A DNA stretch of 64,000 bases, from positions 1 to 64,000 of the forward strand of contig NZ_JAOWKZ010000002.1 in assembly GCF_025751495.1 (NCBI RefSeq). Direction: 5' to 3'. Under the pieces are notes generated by a model, which was not told where the DNA came from, did not search any database, and saw only the letters and a program-made list of their open reading frames with translations. This DNA is from Albidovulum litorale. Its GTDB lineage: Bacteria > Pseudomonadota > Alphaproteobacteria > Rhodobacterales > Rhodobacteraceae. The position numbers and the translations under genes were made by a program. This document shows positions 37,548 through 45,242 of the stretch, piece by piece; within the stretch, counting starts at the first letter, position 1, and each line of letters begins with the position of its first letter.

Positions 37548-38222
37548 TCAAGGGCGCGGCTTGCCCTTCCACGTCCCAAGCCAGGCCCTGAACCGGCCCC
37601 AGACGCCCCGCGCGCGTCCGGCGGCGGCGTCGGCGCGATCCTCCACCCCGTCCCAGGCCTCGCCCATGTCTTCCAGCACCGGGTCGATGGAGCGTTCGCG
37701 GAACTGCAGCCACATGCGGCGCAGAACCAGCAGGATCACGGCAAGGAACACGAAGAAGAAGATGTTGAACCACGGGATGATCGTCGCATCCGGCCCGTCG
37801 ACCGGCTTGATCGAGATCGCGTTCGGGAAGGCCGAGAAATAGACGATCCGCCAGCCGTAATGCGTGACCGAGACCCATTGCGGCGCGGCGGCGGTGGATT
37901 TCAGGTCCTCCGCCTCGGTCTGCAGGTTGGCGGTGTCGAACTTGAAATAGGGCGGCCAGGACCAGCTTGTATCCTCGTTGCGGTAGACCATCGGCTTGCC
38001 GTTGGCCTTGACCGTCTGGATGAACTGCACATCGCGGTTCACGAGCGTGCCGGACTGGTCATCCGGGCTCGACCAGAAGATCCGGGTCCAGTCGTTCAGG
38101 TCCTGCCGTTCCTGATAGGTGTTCACCACCCGCACGATGTCATGCTGCGGCAGCGTGTAGTGGAAGAACCCGATCACGGTCAGCGCCAGAAGCGTCAGGA
38201 TCGTCCATTTCGCGTATTTCAT
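37548..38222 (-). CDS. DUF1523 family membrane protein
   Basis: The 224-aa protein has an N-terminal TM helix (WTILTLLALTVIGFFHY) and a second one near residue 165 (FNIFFFVFLAVILLVL), with a periplasmic domain between them. DUF1523-like stretches are FHYTLPQHDIVRVVNTYQER, NRDVQFIQTVKANGKPMVYRNEDTSW and YGWRIVYFSAFPNAISIKP. The Arg-rich C-terminal tail is cytoplasmic. The start ATG at 38222 has GGGAG upstream. It is the last gene of an eight-gene minus-strand operon with an AAA+ ATPase. Role unknown. Confidence 0.85.
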   Translation of the reverse strand: MKYAKWTILTLLALTVIGFFHYTLPQHDIVRVVNTYQERQDLNDWTRIFWSSPDDQSGTLVNRDVQFIQTVKANGKPMVYRNEDTSWSWPPYFKFDTANLQTEAEDLKSTAAAPQWVSVTHYGWRIVYFSAFPNAISIKPVDGPDATIIPWFNIFFFVFLAVILLVLRRMWLQFRERSIDPVLEDMGEAWDGVEDRADAAAGRARGVWGRFRAWLGTWKGKPRP

Positions 38223-38239
38223 AACCGCCACTCCCGGGC

Positions 38240-38509
38240 TCAGTTCGTCAGATAGATCAGCACCAGCACGGCCAGTGTGGGCACCACGTAGACCAGCCAG
38301 ATCAGCTTGGCCCGCAGGCTTTTCTCATACGTCTTCATGCCTGCCTCGATATATGCATCGCGGGCGTCGGATTCACCCCCGCCGCGCTCGGCGTCCCATT
38401 CCTTTTCCAGCCGCTCGCGTTCCACCGACCGGGAATAGATCGACAGAAGCACATACATGATCGTCATGGCGATGAAACCAAAGACGGCAAGGCGGACAAA
38501 GGCGATCAT
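38240..38509 (-). CDS. Small two-TM membrane protein of the AAA operon
   Basis: The 89-aa product has TM helices at both ends (MIAFVRLAVFGFIAMTIMYV and KLIWLVYVVPTLAVLVLIYL) and a charged cytoplasmic middle (SRSVERERLEKEWDAERGGG). The ATG overlaps the stop of the DUF6638-like gene (ATGA at 38506-38509), so translation is coupled. No characterised family is recognised. Confidence 0.8.
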   Translation of the reverse strand: MIAFVRLAVFGFIAMTIMYVLLSIYSRSVERERLEKEWDAERGGGESDARDAYIEAGMKTYEKSLRAKLIWLVYVVPTLAVLVLIYLTN

Positions 38510-39891
38510 CTGCGGTCCTTCCTGACAGACCCCCAGGGGCCGACGGCATCGACGATATCCGTTTTGCGGCTGGTCCGTCGACTCCACGGTCCGGCTTCAA
38601 CCACCACCCCGGTATCGGCCATGCCCGGCTCGGGCCCGAAAAGGTCACGCCGCGCGCCGGCCTTGTCGATCTGGTATTCGCGTTCGAGGTAGTCAGCCAC
38701 GAACTGCTTCTTTGCCTCGGGCCAGGAGCGGTAGAGGTCGTAGAATAGCTCCTTGTGGCAGATATAAAGCTGGCGCACGTCTAAGGGCGAAAGCTCTGCC
38801 AGAAGCATGTTTACCAGATCGCGGTCGGCATGGGGCTTGGCGCGGAGAGTGTAGAAATAGGCCGGATGCATCGCGGTGATGCGCGGGAAGCGACCGCCGG
38901 TTTCGACCCATCTGAGCAGTTCGGCGAGCCCCCGGAACTCTTCGGGCAGCCGCGACCCCATGCTGGCCGCCGCCTGCCGCAGATCGCGGCGCGATCCGTG
39001 GCCGATATCGAGGCCGAGCTCCGCCGCTGCCGCAACCACGATGAAATCCATCTTCTGGCGCAGGATCGCGGCGGCGTCAGTGCCGCGCGCCTCGTGGATC
39101 GGCTCCACGAGGTCGTTGATGTCGAGAAGCTTCGCCACCTGATTGCGGTCGGAAAGGTCGAAGACATAGGTGATCGGCAACGCGCCCAGTTTCTCCTTCG
39201 GCCCGACCGAAAGGGCTGCCGGATGCTCCACATCGCGGAAGATATAAAGCCCGCCGAAATGCGCGGTCCAGAAATTGCCCTGATCGAAGCTGGTGGCCTT
39301 CAGCGATACCGGGTTGCGCGTCACATCGCCGGTCTTTTCGGCAAGCTGGATCATCTCGCCGATCAGCACGTCATCCCACCAGCCGTCCTCCTCACTCCGG
39401 AAGCGTTCGATGAGGCCCGATAGCTTCTGCCCCTCGGCCACATGGTTGCCGGTCGTATCGGCGACGACAGTGATGCGGCGGATGTCGAACAGTCGCTTCG
39501 GCTCATCGAGGTCGTAGACGGTATTCTCCAACTCCCCCGCCACGGCGTCGCGGGCGGTCAGGGTGAACAACTGCGCCTCGTTCTCCTCGATGAAGCGCGA
39601 GAGGATGCCGCGCGAGGTGGAGAATTTCGCGTTGAGAAGGGGCGCAGTCTTCTGGTCGGTGGTCAGAAGGATGAACTGCCGGTTGCAACCATTGGCGTTA
39701 AGATAGAGGTGGTCGCCCAATTCGTCGCCCACCTCGGGGGAATAGCCGGAGATGTCGATATGGAAATCGGCAAGCTTCGTCTCCTTCCCCGTCAGCGCCT
39801 TCAGCGCGCGGTTATAGCGCTCGACCAGCGCCGGGCTCTCGACGGGCACGAGATTGCCGAACATCAGGCCCTTTTCGATGAGGCGTTTCAT
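38506..39891 (-). CDS. DUF6638-like conserved protein
   Basis: The 461-aa soluble protein opens MKRLIEKGLMFGNLVPVESPALVERYNRAL. It has no signal or TM segment and no enzymatic motif that I recognise. I associate the sequence with DUF6638, a family seen in Rhodobacteraceae beside AAA ATPases; the number is from memory. Distinctive parts are ADFHIDISGYSPEVGDELGDHLYLN, KFSTSRGILSRFIEENEAQLF and QLYICHKELFYDLYRSWPEAKKQF. The start overlaps the upstream gene's stop (ATGA). It may be a client or adaptor of the AAA+ ATPase encoded upstream. Confidence 0.72.
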   Translation of the reverse strand: MKRLIEKGLMFGNLVPVESPALVERYNRALKALTGKETKLADFHIDISGYSPEVGDELGDHLYLNANGCNRQFILLTTDQKTAPLLNAKFSTSRGILSRFIEENEAQLFTLTARDAVAGELENTVYDLDEPKRLFDIRRITVVADTTGNHVAEGQKLSGLIERFRSEEDGWWDDVLIGEMIQLAEKTGDVTRNPVSLKATSFDQGNFWTAHFGGLYIFRDVEHPAALSVGPKEKLGALPITYVFDLSDRNQVAKLLDINDLVEPIHEARGTDAAAILRQKMDFIVVAAAAELGLDIGHGSRRDLRQAAASMGSRLPEEFRGLAELLRWVETGGRFPRITAMHPAYFYTLRAKPHADRDLVNMLLAELSPLDVRQLYICHKELFYDLYRSWPEAKKQFVADYLEREYQIDKAGARRDLFGPEPGMADTGVVVEAGPWSRRTSRKTDIVDAVGPWGSVRKDRR

Positions 39892-40505
39892 GTGCTGCGC
39901 CCAAGTTTGTCGCGCAGATAATCTTCAACCGCGCTAAGATGATGAGAGAAATCCTTTCTGAATTCATCGTCCTCACTCAAAAGATCGTAGAGGATATCTC
40001 GTTTCTTCTTCAGGATTTCTCGATAGGAATTTTGGAGGTCAGCATTGTTCCGAAAATGGGCGTCGAGGTGAAGCATAATATAAACAAATAGCTCGTGCTC
40101 CAAATCTCGTAATGGTTTGACAAGATTTGATAGGTCTTCCCCCCATACCGCGTCAGCCTCAATTAGTAGCGCATCAAGTGCGTTCTTGGCATTTGAATGC
40201 CGTTCCCACCGCCTAGCATATGCAACAATCACACCTTGTTTTCTTTTTTGATCTTCGTTTAGGTGTTGGGCATCCTCTTCTTCAAGGCGCATCTCATCAT
40301 TTCGCATGGCAGGATGCCGGACCGAATAGAGCGAGTCTCGATACCTGTACAACGCAACTAGGGTCTTGCGCGCCAGTTCATGGTCGGCCTGCCAGATGCT
40401 TTGGTTCTTCCAAGCGTTCAAGCCAACATACGCGGCGATCGCACCCGCCGCAGCTGAGATGGCCATCATCCAATTTGCGAGCGCACTCCAAGCCTCCGGG
40501 CTCAT
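39888..40505 (-). CDS. Single-TM protein of unknown function, AT-rich insert in the AAA operon
   Basis: The 205-aa product starts MSPEAWSALANWMMAISAAA, with one N-terminal TM segment (about 11-30), and then a long, highly charged helical domain (for example RRWERHSNAKNALDALLIEADAVW and YREILKKKRDILYDLLSEDDEFRKDF). It resembles small DUF4760-like phage or accessory proteins in layout, but no family is certain. The DNA is clearly AT-richer than both neighbours, and rare-looking codons (ATA, TTA, AGA) appear. Its ends overlap the flanking genes exactly (TGATG and ATGA). This looks like a later addition fitted into the operon. Confidence 0.72.
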   Translation of the reverse strand: MSPEAWSALANWMMAISAAAGAIAAYVGLNAWKNQSIWQADHELARKTLVALYRYRDSLYSVRHPAMRNDEMRLEEEDAQHLNEDQKRKQGVIVAYARRWERHSNAKNALDALLIEADAVWGEDLSNLVKPLRDLEHELFVYIMLHLDAHFRNNADLQNSYREILKKKRDILYDLLSEDDEFRKDFSHHLSAVEDYLRDKLGRST

Positions 40506-42445
40506 CACCCCTTCCCCTCCAGATACCGCCTTTTGGCCTCCTCCATCCGGCCCATCTCGCGCACCGCGTTTTCGATGGCGACCTCGTCGGACTTGTCGGC
40601 ATAGCGGAATTCCGAATCCGCGTAGCGGTTGATCTCCTGCACCACCATCTCGACCGTGATCGGCCTCCTGAGTTCGGAAATCATCGCCTTCTTCTCGTCG
40701 TAGGGCTTGAAGAGGAAGAGGTCCGGCTCCTCCATCCACTCATCGGGCAGTTCGAAATCCATCGCCCGGACCTTCACCGCATCGGTAATGTTTTTGATCG
40801 CGCGACCGGTAAACCGCTCATCCGCCTCCTGAATGGCCTTGAGGTAGGAGCCGAGCTTGGCGATCGTATCGAGCGCCCCGATCCGCCCTTCGACCTCATT
40901 CCACACCGCCTTCAGCCCATCCTCATGCGGCACCGAATGGCCGTCGAAACTGGCGGCAACCGCCTTCTTGATCTCCTGCGCGGCGTAAAGCTCATGCTCC
41001 CCCATCGGGATCGCATGGTTCTTTCCGAGGAGGAGCGCGAGGATGTCGATGTAATCCTCGCGCGTTTGCGGCCCGTCGACCAGAAACCGCGCCCCGGCGC
41101 GCTGGCGCAGGGCGTCGTCGACATTCTCGGGGTAGTTCGAAAACATGCCAAAGGTGCAGTTGCCGCGCACGACGGTATTGGCGCCGGCAAAGGCCTCCAT
41201 CAGCACCGCCGTGATCTCCTGCTGCCCCGCGCTCGACTGGCGGTCGCCGCGTTTGCCCGCAACCTGATCGATGTCATCGACAGTTCCGAAGCCGATCACG
41301 GCGGGGTCCATCACCCCGTTGATGAAGGCCTTGGCGTTCTGGCCCGACTTGCCCTGATAGCTGTCGACATTGTCGATGGAGAGGTTCGCGTAGCGGAACG
41401 GGTAGTTCGCGACCTTGCAGTAATCATTCAGAAGCCCCGCCATCATCTGAATGAGCGTCGTCTTGCCCGTACCCGGCTTGCCATCCCCCATGAAAGTGAA
41501 GATGAAGCCGCCCATCTCGGCGAAGGGGTTCAGCTTGCGGCTGAAATCATAGGCCATCAGCATCTTGGCCAGCCTGAGGGCCTGATACTTGGCGATATGG
41601 TTGCCGACGACCTCATGCGGCTTCTTGAAGGTCATGACGAGGGTGGAGCCCCGCGCCTTGCGCGCCGGTTCAAAGCCCGAGATCGGGAAATCGTCCGCCT
41701 CGACCCGGTAATTGGCGCCGGTAAAAGCCTCCAGCCGCGGGGCGGAGGCGGCGCGCAGCTTGACCTTCTGCATCAGCTGTTCGGCATAGGCGAGGATGGT
41801 GGCGATCAGCGTCGCCTCATCCTTGGCAAAGACTGCGATGTCCTGATCCAGTTCCCAGAGCGCACCGTGCAGCGCAAGCTGGGCGTTGTCGGTCAGGACC
41901 TCCTCCACCGCGCCGATCTCCACCGAAACCTCGCTGGCCTTCTCGGCCAGAAGAAACGCCGTCGCGTTGGCGAAGACCGACAGCACGACCAATGCCTCGG
42001 CGGCCAGAAGCTCGGTGAATTCATTCGCCCGCGATGCGGGCATCCGGTTTTCCAGATTGGCCTTCTTCAACTCGATGAGGCCAGTCTGACCCGAAAACGC
42101 CTCCCCCATCGCAAGCGCGACTGACAGGGACCGGCGAAGCGCATGGGCCGCCGCGGCCTGCAGGGGGGATGTCAGCGGATCGTCGTCATCGGTCGTCGCC
42201 ATCCGGTCAATCAGCCGCACGCCCTCCGTCCGCGCCATTGACCGGGTCACGAGGCCGGGCGTCGTTGACCGGAACCGCCGCTGCATCGCCGCCACATCGG
42301 GGGATTTCTCCGGCCCCGTCACCGTCAGCTTCGGCTGCGCCAGACGCGGGGCATGATCGACGCCCATCAGCATCTCGGTCGCCGCCATGTAATGCGCCCG
42401 GATCTCTTCTTCCTTCAGTTCCATCTCATTCTGCGGCGCGCTCAT
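40505..42445 (-). CDS. AAA+ ATPase with a large N-terminal domain
   Basis: The 646-aa protein has about 310 N-terminal residues without a known motif, then an AAA+ module. Walker A is GDGKPGTGKTT (320-330). The Walker B position reads VIGFGTVDDIDQ (383-394), with Asp where many AAA proteins have Glu. Sensor 1 is probably Asn437 in GMFSNYPENVDD, and arginine-finger candidates are Arg447, Arg449 and Arg453. It lacks TM segments. The gene lies centrally in the operon, after the conserved DUF gene and the hairpin repeat copy B. A remodelling ATPase acting on the coiled-coil and membrane partners is inferred. Neither MoxR nor classical TelA-associated ATPases match exactly. Confidence 0.85.
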   Translation of the reverse strand: MSAPQNEMELKEEEIRAHYMAATEMLMGVDHAPRLAQPKLTVTGPEKSPDVAAMQRRFRSTTPGLVTRSMARTEGVRLIDRMATTDDDDPLTSPLQAAAAHALRRSLSVALAMGEAFSGQTGLIELKKANLENRMPASRANEFTELLAAEALVVLSVFANATAFLLAEKASEVSVEIGAVEEVLTDNAQLALHGALWELDQDIAVFAKDEATLIATILAYAEQLMQKVKLRAASAPRLEAFTGANYRVEADDFPISGFEPARKARGSTLVMTFKKPHEVVGNHIAKYQALRLAKMLMAYDFSRKLNPFAEMGGFIFTFMGDGKPGTGKTTLIQMMAGLLNDYCKVANYPFRYANLSIDNVDSYQGKSGQNAKAFINGVMDPAVIGFGTVDDIDQVAGKRGDRQSSAGQQEITAVLMEAFAGANTVVRGNCTFGMFSNYPENVDDALRQRAGARFLVDGPQTREDYIDILALLLGKNHAIPMGEHELYAAQEIKKAVAASFDGHSVPHEDGLKAVWNEVEGRIGALDTIAKLGSYLKAIQEADERFTGRAIKNITDAVKVRAMDFELPDEWMEEPDLFLFKPYDEKKAMISELRRPITVEMVVQEINRYADSEFRYADKSDEVAIENAVREMGRMEEAKRRYLEGKG

Positions 42446-42477
42446 CGAATTCCCTCACTGCTCATCTTCTTCTGTTC

Positions 42478-42522
42478 AAAAATACCTCCCGGGGGTGCGG
42501 GGGCAGGCAGCCCCCGCTTCCG
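42478..42522 (+). repeat. Dispersed GC-rich hairpin repeat, copy B
   Basis: AAAAATACCTCCCGGGGG is followed by TGCGGGGGCAGGCAGCCCCCGC and TTCC, the same layout as copy A with a few changes. It lies in the 79-bp gap between the AAA+ ATPase start and the end of the preceding gene, inside what otherwise looks like one operon, so it may act as an internal attenuator or mRNA-processing hairpin. Confidence 0.75.
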
Positions 42523-42524
42523 GC

Positions 42525-43652
42525 CTATCCGTAAACGAGCACCCTGCCCTCCTTGCCGACGACGAACTTCCGCACGTCGCGGAACCCGGCGGGGTCCTTC
42601 TCGGCCAGAACCTGAAACGGCCGTTGCGGCAGGATCAGCGACCGCGTCACCCGCGTCGCCCCGGTCTCCACCCCGCGGCCCGAGAACGGATCAAGTTTGA
42701 AAACCTCGCGTTCGATATCGCTGAACCAGCCCTTCTCGACCTCGACCCGCTCGCTTTCCAGCTCTTCCAGGGTCCAGGCGAGCGCCCAGTCCTCGCCCTT
42801 GGGCGATTTCGCCTCGTCCAGCACCTCGCGGATCGGCCCGGTTTGCAGAGTGAAGGCCGAGGAATACATCGGCCCCAGATGCAGGCGGCGCAGCCGCTTC
42901 GGGTGCAGGTCGTCGAAATCGGTATCGAAGCCCTTGGCGATGGTGATCAGCTTCAGCCCCCCCACCGACTGCGCCATCAGATGGGCCTGCGCGGCGGGCC
43001 AGCGGCGTTCGTCGAGGGGCAGCGCCTTGCGGCCCGAATCAACCACCTCCATCAGATAGATCACCGGCACATTCAGCTGGCTGTCATAGACACCCCAATG
43101 CACGAGGTACCCGCGCCGCCCGCCTGAGACATCGGCGATCCACTGGGCCTGCGGATGCATCTGGGGGAAATAGAGCCCGCCCTTCTGCAAGGCCTCATAA
43201 TAAAGCCGCTGCGACATCGCATATTGCAGCCGAGTCGGCACCACGCGCTCGCCGACGATCTGGCGCACCATCTCGTCCTTCAACTGTGCCGGCGATGGCA
43301 TGCCTTCCAGATGCCGCGCCGCCTGCGCGGTATCGTTGGCCATCGTGACCAGTTCCTGAAAAATCGGGAAGCCGCTTTCATGCAGGTCGATGGTCAGATG
43401 CTTCTGCCCGATCCCGTCGAGCCGGCCCGAGACGAGGTATTTCAGGCTGAGCGCCTTGAACGTCGCGGCAATGGCGCGGACGTAACCCTCCAGCACATCG
43501 CTGTCCATGGCAGAGAAGGCGCGATCCTTCTCCATCTCCTCCGCGACCCCGGTCAGCCGCCGCGTGATCCCCTCGAACTTCGCGAAATAGCGCCGCGCGG
43601 CAAGGTCGTCGTCGAGCGCCTTGTGGTCGGTGGTCAGGTCAAGGTCGGGCAT
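42525..43652 (-). CDS. Conserved protein of unknown function in the AAA operon
   Basis: The 375-aa soluble protein starts MPDLDLTTDHKALDDDLAAR. An N-terminal helical part (RYFAKFEGITRRLTGVAEEM) is followed by a mixed alpha/beta domain with YLVHWGVYDSQLNVPVIYLMEVVDSG and LKLITIAKGFDTDFDDLHPKRLRRLHLGP. No catalytic or nucleotide motif is recognised. The start at 43652 restores a sensible N terminus and overlaps the preceding small membrane-protein gene by 14 bp. The gene order next to the AAA+ ATPase suggests a functional partner. Confidence 0.75.
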   Translation of the reverse strand: MPDLDLTTDHKALDDDLAARRYFAKFEGITRRLTGVAEEMEKDRAFSAMDSDVLEGYVRAIAATFKALSLKYLVSGRLDGIGQKHLTIDLHESGFPIFQELVTMANDTAQAARHLEGMPSPAQLKDEMVRQIVGERVVPTRLQYAMSQRLYYEALQKGGLYFPQMHPQAQWIADVSGGRRGYLVHWGVYDSQLNVPVIYLMEVVDSGRKALPLDERRWPAAQAHLMAQSVGGLKLITIAKGFDTDFDDLHPKRLRRLHLGPMYSSAFTLQTGPIREVLDEAKSPKGEDWALAWTLEELESERVEVEKGWFSDIEREVFKLDPFSGRGVETGATRVTRSLILPQRPFQVLAEKDPAGFRDVRKFVVGKEGRVLVYG

Positions 43653-43992
43653 CGCGGTCGTTGCCTTCGTGGTCGATGTGAAGCCACCAACGCCAGAATC
43701 CGGCAAACGGCGTTCGTAGGATGATGTCGGCCGGGAGTCGTCCATCAAGAGTTGGGAGTTCCGAATGCCTGAGAGCGTGCAGCCAAAGTGAACGCATCAG
43801 CGTGCGCGCGACCGTTCCAAAGGCGAGCGCGATCCAAGCGACAGACATTCCAGCCATCGAGAGCGACCGAAAGACAAGTTGCTCGTTCGTTTCAGTGCGT
43901 GCGAAGCCGGTAAGGAGGAAATCCGGCAACATGAGGGTCGCGCCGAACATACCTGCCGTGATCGAAAGGATAATTTGACCCCGATAGGTCAT
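43639..43992 (-). CDS. Small membrane protein of the AAA operon
   Basis: The 117-aa product has two to three hydrophobic helices (IILSITAGMFGATLMLPDFL and SLSMAGMSVAWIALAFGTVA), with a hydrophilic C-terminal part containing FAGFWRWWLHIDHEGND. No family is recognised. Its DNA is AT-richer than the flanking genes. It starts 2 bp after the coiled-coil gene and overlaps the next gene by 14 bp. Like the insert at 39888-40505 it may be a variable passenger in the operon. Confidence 0.7.
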   Translation of the reverse strand: MTYRGQIILSITAGMFGATLMLPDFLLTGFARTETNEQLVFRSLSMAGMSVAWIALAFGTVARTLMRSLWLHALRHSELPTLDGRLPADIILRTPFAGFWRWWLHIDHEGNDRDARP

Positions 43993-43994
43993 CC

Positions 43995-45071
43995 TTACCC
44001 ACCATACAGGTTCTTGTCGTGCTTCTCGACGATCTGCTGGAACCGCCGGGCGAAGCGTTCGTCGGCCTTGGCCTTCTGCTCCAGCACCTTGCGGGCAAAG
44101 ACCATCTGGTCCTCGTGCGCCTCCATCATCTCGGCCATGCGGGTGTTGGTCGCGACGCCGATCCCGGCCATGGCCGCCTGCGCCTCCTGATCGGTCTTGA
44201 CCCCGATCTCGTTGATCTTGTGGGCCACGTCCTGCTGCTGCGCGGTCTTCAAGCTCTTGGTCAACGCATCATAAAGTACCACCCGCTGCTTGGTGTCCGT
44301 CTGCAGCTTGTTGATCAGCACCATCTGGGTCGCCGCCTGATTTTGCAGGCTGTCCACCCAGGTCTTGCCCTTCTCGATATAGCGCTCCAGCGTCTGGGAT
44401 TTGGCGAGCTTCACCTGCTCATCCTGCACCATCGCGTTGTAGCGCTTGTTCAACTCGGCAAGCTGGCTTTCCAGCTGCGTGCGCTTTGCCGCGTCCTGTT
44501 CGACGCTGATCGCGTTTTCGATCTTGATGATCTCGGGGTCGAGCTTCTGGATATCGGCACGGAGCGTTTCCAACTCGCCCACCGTCACCTCGCGGTCCGA
44601 AAGCGTCTCGGTCAGGTTGGCCTCGACCTTGTCCTTGTGCTGATTGAGGATGTTGAGCTGACCTTCCAAGAGTTTCACGATCACGTCGGACTTGCCGATC
44701 AGGTCCTGCAACTTGTCGTCGATGGAGGCACCGCGCAGGCGTTCCTGCCGCATCGATTCGGATTTGCCCTTGGAGAAGATGCCGATGAAGCTTTCCAGCC
44801 CCGTCTTGTTGCGCATCTCATCGAAATCCTTGGAAAAGCCCGCCGTGACATCGTCGAGCCCCATGATCAGTTCGGCGATGTTCGCGTTCATGATCTCGGC
44901 ATGGGCATGGACGTCATCGAGCGTTGCATTCTCGATGTCGATCGACACGTCGTCGCCGGTCTTGAGCTTCTGCCGCGCAGTTTCGATCCGGCTTGTCAGT
45001 TCCGAGATTTTGGCCTGCGCCGCGGAAACCTGTTTCTGGCTTTCAAGAATCTGGGCATCGAAATCGGACAT
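43995..45071 (-). CDS. Coiled-coil protein, TelA/PspA-like, first gene of the AAA operon
   Basis: The 358-aa protein is almost wholly helical, with heptad-like stretches (ILESQKQVSAAQAKISELTS, SDREVTVGELETLRADIQKL). It has no signal peptide. The middle (GKSDVIVKLLEGQLNILNQHKDKVEANL) and later KGKTWVDSLQNQAATQMVLINKL resemble the helical bundles of toxic-anion-resistance (TelA) and PspA-type membrane-stress proteins. The likeness is in architecture and is not proven homology. The end RFARRFQQIVEKHDKNLYGG is basic. It opens the minus-strand operon that includes the AAA+ ATPase and is divergent from the M20 gene. Confidence 0.78.
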   Translation of the reverse strand: MSDFDAQILESQKQVSAAQAKISELTSRIETARQKLKTGDDVSIDIENATLDDVHAHAEIMNANIAELIMGLDDVTAGFSKDFDEMRNKTGLESFIGIFSKGKSESMRQERLRGASIDDKLQDLIGKSDVIVKLLEGQLNILNQHKDKVEANLTETLSDREVTVGELETLRADIQKLDPEIIKIENAISVEQDAAKRTQLESQLAELNKRYNAMVQDEQVKLAKSQTLERYIEKGKTWVDSLQNQAATQMVLINKLQTDTKQRVVLYDALTKSLKTAQQQDVAHKINEIGVKTDQEAQAAMAGIGVATNTRMAEMMEAHEDQMVFARKVLEQKAKADERFARRFQQIVEKHDKNLYGG

Positions 45072-45242
45072 GGGCGCTCCCTGATGTTAAACCTATTTAC
45101 AATGATGGGGATGCACGGGTCGTTTGTCATCCCCCCGGTTGTCGAAATCGTTATCGCAAAATCCAAACGCGGCGTCATCCTGCAATCTCTGCCCGCCGGA
45201 TTGTCGTTGCGGCATGGGGGACAGCGGGGCTAGCCTTGCGCC

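Follow-up and report, generated by a model that had tools for sequence, protein, structure and literature searches.

Eight closely packed open reading frames, all on the minus strand, occupy positions 37548-45071 of the window, i. e. of the whole 64,000-nucleotide stretch of Albidovulum litorale DNA that was analysed. The preliminary description had called eight genes here, and all of them proved to be open at these coordinates. In the direction of transcription they are named A to H. Gene A (43995-45071), the first gene of the operon, encodes a soluble, helical or coiled-coil protein of 358 residues. It is followed by B (43639-43992), which encodes a small membrane protein of 117 residues; C (42525-43652), a soluble protein of 375 residues; D (40505-42445), a classical AAA ATPase of 646 residues; E (39888-40505), an AT-rich gene for 205 residues; F (38506-39891), a DUF6638 protein of 461 residues with a disordered C-terminus of about 40 residues; G (38240-38509), a protein of 89 residues with two transmembrane segments; and H (37548-38231), a DUF1523 protein in which two transmembrane segments flank a soluble domain of about 120 residues. 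In Pfam, A, B, C and G had no family above the cut-off, and searches of NCBIfam and PADLOC added only weak matches to the Pfam results. The GC content of E is 0.49 and its GC3 0.51; GC3 of A, C, D, F and H lies between 0.81 and 0.89.

The overlaps and short gaps expected from the preliminary description were found at most junctions. A and B are separated by 2 nt, B and C overlap by 14 nt, D and E overlap in TGATG, E and F as well as F and G in ATGA, and G and H lie 8 nt apart. Here the start of C was taken as its conserved ATG at 43652, the TTG reading frame reaching to 43748 being an over-extension; E starts with the ATG at 40505, F at 39891 and G with the ATG at 38509. Tight packing does not hold for C and D, which are 79 nt apart and form the sole loose junction of the operon.

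A bipartite promoter-like element, ATGACA-N17-CATCAT on the minus strand (45102-45130), is located 30 nt before gene A. Its position is conserved: the mean score over 74 loci was 15.1 bits, compared with 8.7-9.3 bits in shuffled sequences, and the copy in the window is one of two sigma-70-type sites in a simple scan. The -10 part resembles CYTATNT, the alphaproteobacterial heat-shock form. In R. sphaeroides, the TTG in the -35 element is critical for both RpoHI and RpoHII (PMC3441632). The -35 part of the element reads T-G/T-T/G and TTG is not conserved; thus an RpoH promoter was rejected although the -10 part fits. In Ruegeria-type loci (e. g. L058, L079 and L082), an inverted repeat, GGGGATGTAA-N7-TTACATTCCCC or near it, overlaps the promoter element upstream of A. 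It is present in part of the family and is a possible operator.

Conserved core and its distribution

When genome contigs were scanned for the AAA protein, 80 loci were obtained, nearly all of them from Rhodobacteraceae. Nearly all of these 80 other loci have A, C, D, F, G and H in collinear order, which far exceeds chance. B and E do not share this collinearity and lie outside the conserved unit; most related genomes carry different genes, or none, at their positions. Hence the eight-gene operon of the preliminary description is a real conserved module, but one of six core genes, four of them ancient, into which the passengers B and E are set.

The four ancient genes extend beyond the family. 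The order A-C-D-F is kept in Rhodobacteraceae, on pSymB of Sinorhizobium meliloti and in Vibrio parahaemolyticus. Identity to the window proteins is 43% for A, 30% for C, 52% for D and 29% for F in Sinorhizobium, and 37%, 29%, 42% and 27%, respectively, in Vibrio. In the window the module is flanked by ppc and M20/panC; its neighbours are others in Rhizobiaceae (fhs) and in Vibrio (mfd). Of 398 genomes of the phylum, 26 contained DUF6638, and an independent search of this set for D returned the identical 26. A, C, D and F diverge in a correlated manner (Mantel r 0.80-0.95, reached in 0 of 200 permutations); within one family, part of this correlation goes back to the species tree.

The membrane proteins follow the lineage. 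In Rhizobiaceae, the membrane protein DUF2333 stands after F (L112, L142), at the place that G and H have in Rhodobacteraceae. The Vibrio form has neither G and H nor DUF2333, so the membrane part of the module is not universal. Within the family, the AAA protein is present in 45 of 100 genomes, which makes the module common but dispensable.

One genome from outside the Alphaproteobacteria (G050, locus L108) contains A, C, D, F, G and H. The nearest loci are the Leisingera-type loci L089-L093, to which its A and D are about 80% identical. A complete operon at this level of identity indicates a recent horizontal transfer of the six genes as a unit. In this copy D and F are joined by ATGA, without a passenger in the slot. 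A single TGA lies in its DUF6638 frame, near the end of the match.

Together, A-C-D-F form a four-component machine that was passed on as a unit by descent and, at least once, by transfer; it is completed by the membrane proteins G and H in Rhodobacteraceae and by DUF2333 in Rhizobiaceae. Co-occurrence in other genomes had been set beforehand as the point on which the proposed module could fail, and the genes do co-occur. The conserved module, in which an AAA+ ATPase is combined with a coiled-coil partner and membrane proteins, is thereby supported, and no characterised system matches it. It is a co-inherited, deep AAA machine whose function is undescribed and which is found in roughly half the Rhodobacteraceae genera that were sampled, in several Rhizobiaceae and in some Vibrio. 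It gives DUF6638 a fixed gene context, and it is open to genetic tests in common laboratory strains.

The AAA ATPase and its partner proteins

D matched the Pfam family AAA with an E-value of 7.5e-12 (residues 322-455). The helical N-terminal part of 310 residues had no Pfam match, in agreement with the novel N-terminal part that had been proposed for this AAA+ ATPase. The motifs of the core are Walker A (322-329), the pore loop SYQG (362-365), the DD of Walker B (390-391) and arginines at 447, 449 and 453. The stretch from S362 to S367 (Ser-Tyr-Gln-Gly-Lys-Ser) and D390-D391 are invariant in all 38 homologues, including those of Rhizobiaceae, and are kept in Vibrio. With phmmer, D found the ATPase of the i-AAA protease (2e-5) and Vps4 (6e-5), and also Rpt subunits and katanin; the regions aligned were Walker A, the pore loop, Walker B, sensor 1 and the arginine region. 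Judged by sequence, i-AAA, Vps4 and katanin are the nearest solved relatives of D.

With these relatives D has in common Walker A, the aromatic-x-Gly pore loop, the sensor-1 region and the tandem arginines, i. e. the classical AAA core, aromatic pore loop and arginine fingers of the Vps4 type. In contrast to them, it has no protease, MIT or Vps4_C domain in Pfam, and its N-terminal part of 310 residues is unrelated to theirs. A further difference concerns residue 391 (window 41273-41275), where the catalytic Glu of Walker B is replaced by Asp in every aligned homologue, from the window through Rhizobiaceae to Vibrio. A fixed Asp at this position is unusual for an otherwise canonical AAA ATPase. 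As Vps4 has Glu there, the exchange suggests that hydrolysis might be slow, regulated or otherwise altered.

Gene A was aligned with 39 homologues. Its AF2 single-chain model is all helix and weak (pLDDT 68), and a Foldseek search with this low-confidence model gave only generic coiled coils, none of them at E ≤ 0.001. The preliminary description had taken A for a TelA/PspA-like coiled coil, a designation we had to abandon. A matches neither PF05816 (TelA) nor PspA_IM30 or Snf7 in Pfam, and profile-profile comparison with hhalign gave a probability of 0.1% for TelA and 7% for PspA. In 53 of 61 genomes of the family, TelA proper (PF05816) has a gene of its own, separate from A; the genome of the window (G000) lacks it.

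No relative of C was found in Pfam or among PDB sequences, and the profiles of C and F are unrelated. F and H are plain members of the families to which they had been assigned, both above the gathering score: F of DUF6638 (PF20343; 1e-221, 737 bits) and H of DUF1523 (PF07509; 6e-73, 244 bits). The function of neither family is known. We found no paper naming DUF6638, and those naming DUF1523 or DUF2333 concern, by their titles, other subjects. The AF2 single-chain model of F is confident (pLDDT 86, pTM 0.81), but it has no counterpart among solved structures: neither the PDB nor the viral BFVD contained a match at E ≤ 0.001. Judging from this model, the fold of F is probably new or else strongly diverged.

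Exchangeable genes in two slots

Counted over full open reading frames, inserts of more than 150 bp are concentrated at two junctions of the core. They were present between D and F at 75 of 83 loci and between A and C at 37 of 78. At the other junctions they were found at 8 of 80 loci (C to D), 1 of 77 (F to G) and 0 of 68 (G to H). The inserted genes are fitted to the operon. Their longest reading frames lie on the operon strand in 65 of 74 cases between D and F and in 32 of 34 between A and C, their start is often no more than 15 nt past the upstream stop, and many loci show the junction pattern D-TGATG-passenger-ATGA-F. Their GC content is mostly below that of the preceding gene (58 of 74 between D and F, 27 of 34 between A and C). 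Turnover is fast: among the 63 locus pairs with an AAA identity of at least 95%, just 2 had homologous D-F passengers.

What is swapped comprises small membrane proteins, nucleases and toxin-antitoxin genes. The A-C slot holds small membrane proteins, mostly unrelated to one another and with one to three transmembrane segments; such a segment was predicted in 31 of 34. In the D-F slot, small membrane proteins occur beside soluble ones. Among the latter are Mrr and DUF559 nucleases, a PIN/DUF433 pair and DUF2971 and DUF4145-like proteins; putative abortive-infection-like membrane proteins are also found in this slot. The passenger families are specific for their slot, with 234 hits from D-F passengers to other D-F passengers and none between the two slots.

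Of the two passengers of the window, B has only weakly similar relatives, one in L031 (phmmer 3e-5) and perhaps another in L034. In a genome-wide search, E was found in 2 of 61 genomes of the family, in both directly after the AAA gene. Of two further families present in five genomes each, A8 stands right after the AAA gene in three genomes and in a fourth in an operon copy without a detected AAA gene, and A7 lies in the slot in two. B and E are thus exchangeable passengers that use the transcription and translation of the operon, and their swapping shows which genes to exclude from a functional model.

Some individual passengers may be recorded here. Genes for DUF559 (Vsr-like) endonucleases occur in the D-F slot at L028:5115-5567, L112:7937-8404 and L142:10079-10483, i. 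e. in a Rhodobacteraceae MAG (L028) and independently in Rhizobiaceae. On S. meliloti pSymB, the same slot also contains an IS4-type element. In the A-C slot, the passengers of L044, L083 and L100 are small, unrelated membrane proteins with Gly/Asp-rich tails such as GGFGGGDS and GGYGGGDGSGS.

Possible roles of the module

Our preferred interpretation, which we put forward tentatively, is that D works at the inner membrane, where it remodels either A or a client that A and C present to it, with C and F as adaptors and G and H as the anchor. Beyond an AAA unfoldase, we infer the individual steps. As a protease-free AAA ring, D would grip a protein with its Tyr-Gln-Gly pore loop and then thread or remodel it. 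The likeliest substrate would be the coiled-coil protein A or an assembly of it; alternatively, the client could be a protein presented by A and C. C and F might serve as adaptors or regulators, and G and H would hold the complex to the inner membrane, with DUF2333 as the anchor in Rhizobiaceae. Such a machine could build and take apart a coiled-coil structure or a membrane complex in the manner of Vps4 and ESCRT-III, with unrelated partners. An envelope-stress or membrane-remodelling role, as the preliminary description suggested, would be linked to the membrane by G and H and by DUF2333, which occupies the same place in Rhizobiaceae.

A less probable, yet possible explanation is that the core serves as a dedicated chaperone of assembly, with a MoxR-like role, which inserts or matures one specific inner-membrane complex and for which A is a scaffold rather than a substrate. 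This role would suit an AAA protein that lacks a protease, the adaptor-like character of C and F, and the change of membrane partner between lineages (DUF1523 or DUF2333). However, no common client gene adjoins the operon, the flanks of which differ as described above.

The remodelling reading, in which A is the substrate of D, can be carried further. The module would then be a bacterial counterpart of ESCRT-III/Vps4 that evolved independently, with A as a non-homologous coiled-coil polymer at the inner membrane, D as the threading AAA protein, the adaptor folds of C and DUF6638 as new ones, a spread from Alpha- to Gammaproteobacteria and variable membrane effectors plugged in per lineage. In this extended form we consider it doubtful.

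The content of the D-F slot invites another interpretation, namely that the operon is a chassis for conflict or anti-phage functions whose slots take up interchangeable effectors. The nucleases, the PIN/DUF433 pair and the DUF2971, DUF4145-like and putative abortive-infection-like proteins, the fast turnover among loci with nearly identical AAA proteins, and passenger families that are slot-specific and genome-wide mostly stand after this AAA gene are all consistent with it. However, such variability is at least matched by the nuo operon. In 15 genomes of the family, inserts of more than 150 bp were found at 71 of 171 junction instances of nuo, compared with 22 of 75 in the studied operon of the same genomes; the dcw cluster was lower, with 5 of 75 at five clean junctions (two others were unusable, owing to a missed gene or to a pair that crosses the operon end). 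With nuo as the control, the idea that variable slots are peculiar to the studied operon was rejected. Since nuo is equally variable, the uptake of small genes is a habit of the family and not a mark of this system, and the passengers argue only weakly for a defence role. Slot specificity, too, can arise by homologous recombination between the conserved flanks, and the transferred copy in G050 has no D-F passenger. In PADLOC, PHROGs and a phage collection, the AAA core alone gave matches, and these were weak; among them is the similarity of D to TRIP13 (6e-5), which is confined to the AAA core, and no PADLOC match of the core proteins was convincing. We therefore regard a defence chassis as improbable.

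That this alphaproteobacterium has a genuine ESCRT-III/Vps4 or Psp system in the module is very unlikely and disfavoured here. The AAA core of D does align with Vps4 and katanin, and the arrangement recalls the PspA/Snf7-AAA neighbourhoods for which ATP-dependent membrane remodelling has been proposed (Ravi et al., PMC11237479): there, as in our operon, a coiled-coil gene lies beside the gene of an AAA ATPase together with membrane proteins. Yet beyond the AAA core, Pfam gave no match up to E=1 to a domain of the Vps4/ESCRT-III system; MIT, Vps4_C, Snf7 and PspA_IM30 are missing. By profile A is neither PspA nor Snf7, and Foldseek with its low-confidence model gave no match at E ≤ 0.001. C, DUF6638 and this gene set are not mentioned in those parts of PMC11237479 considered here. 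Finally, apart from the similar length of the coiled-coil proteins, nothing favours a tellurite-resistance (TelA) operon, an assignment that the profile of A and the separate location of TelA proper leave with next to no probability.

Small extra open reading frames inside nuo operons occur in Rhodobacteraceae and Paracoccus. In the nuo operons compared here (L187-L201), inserts variable in presence and absence were found at 6 of 12 junctions. Like the studied operon, they carry variable small reading frames between conserved genes; the two operons differ in their passengers, with no clear common family and two weak hits. Exchangeable small genes inside operons may be a family-wide and little-studied habit.
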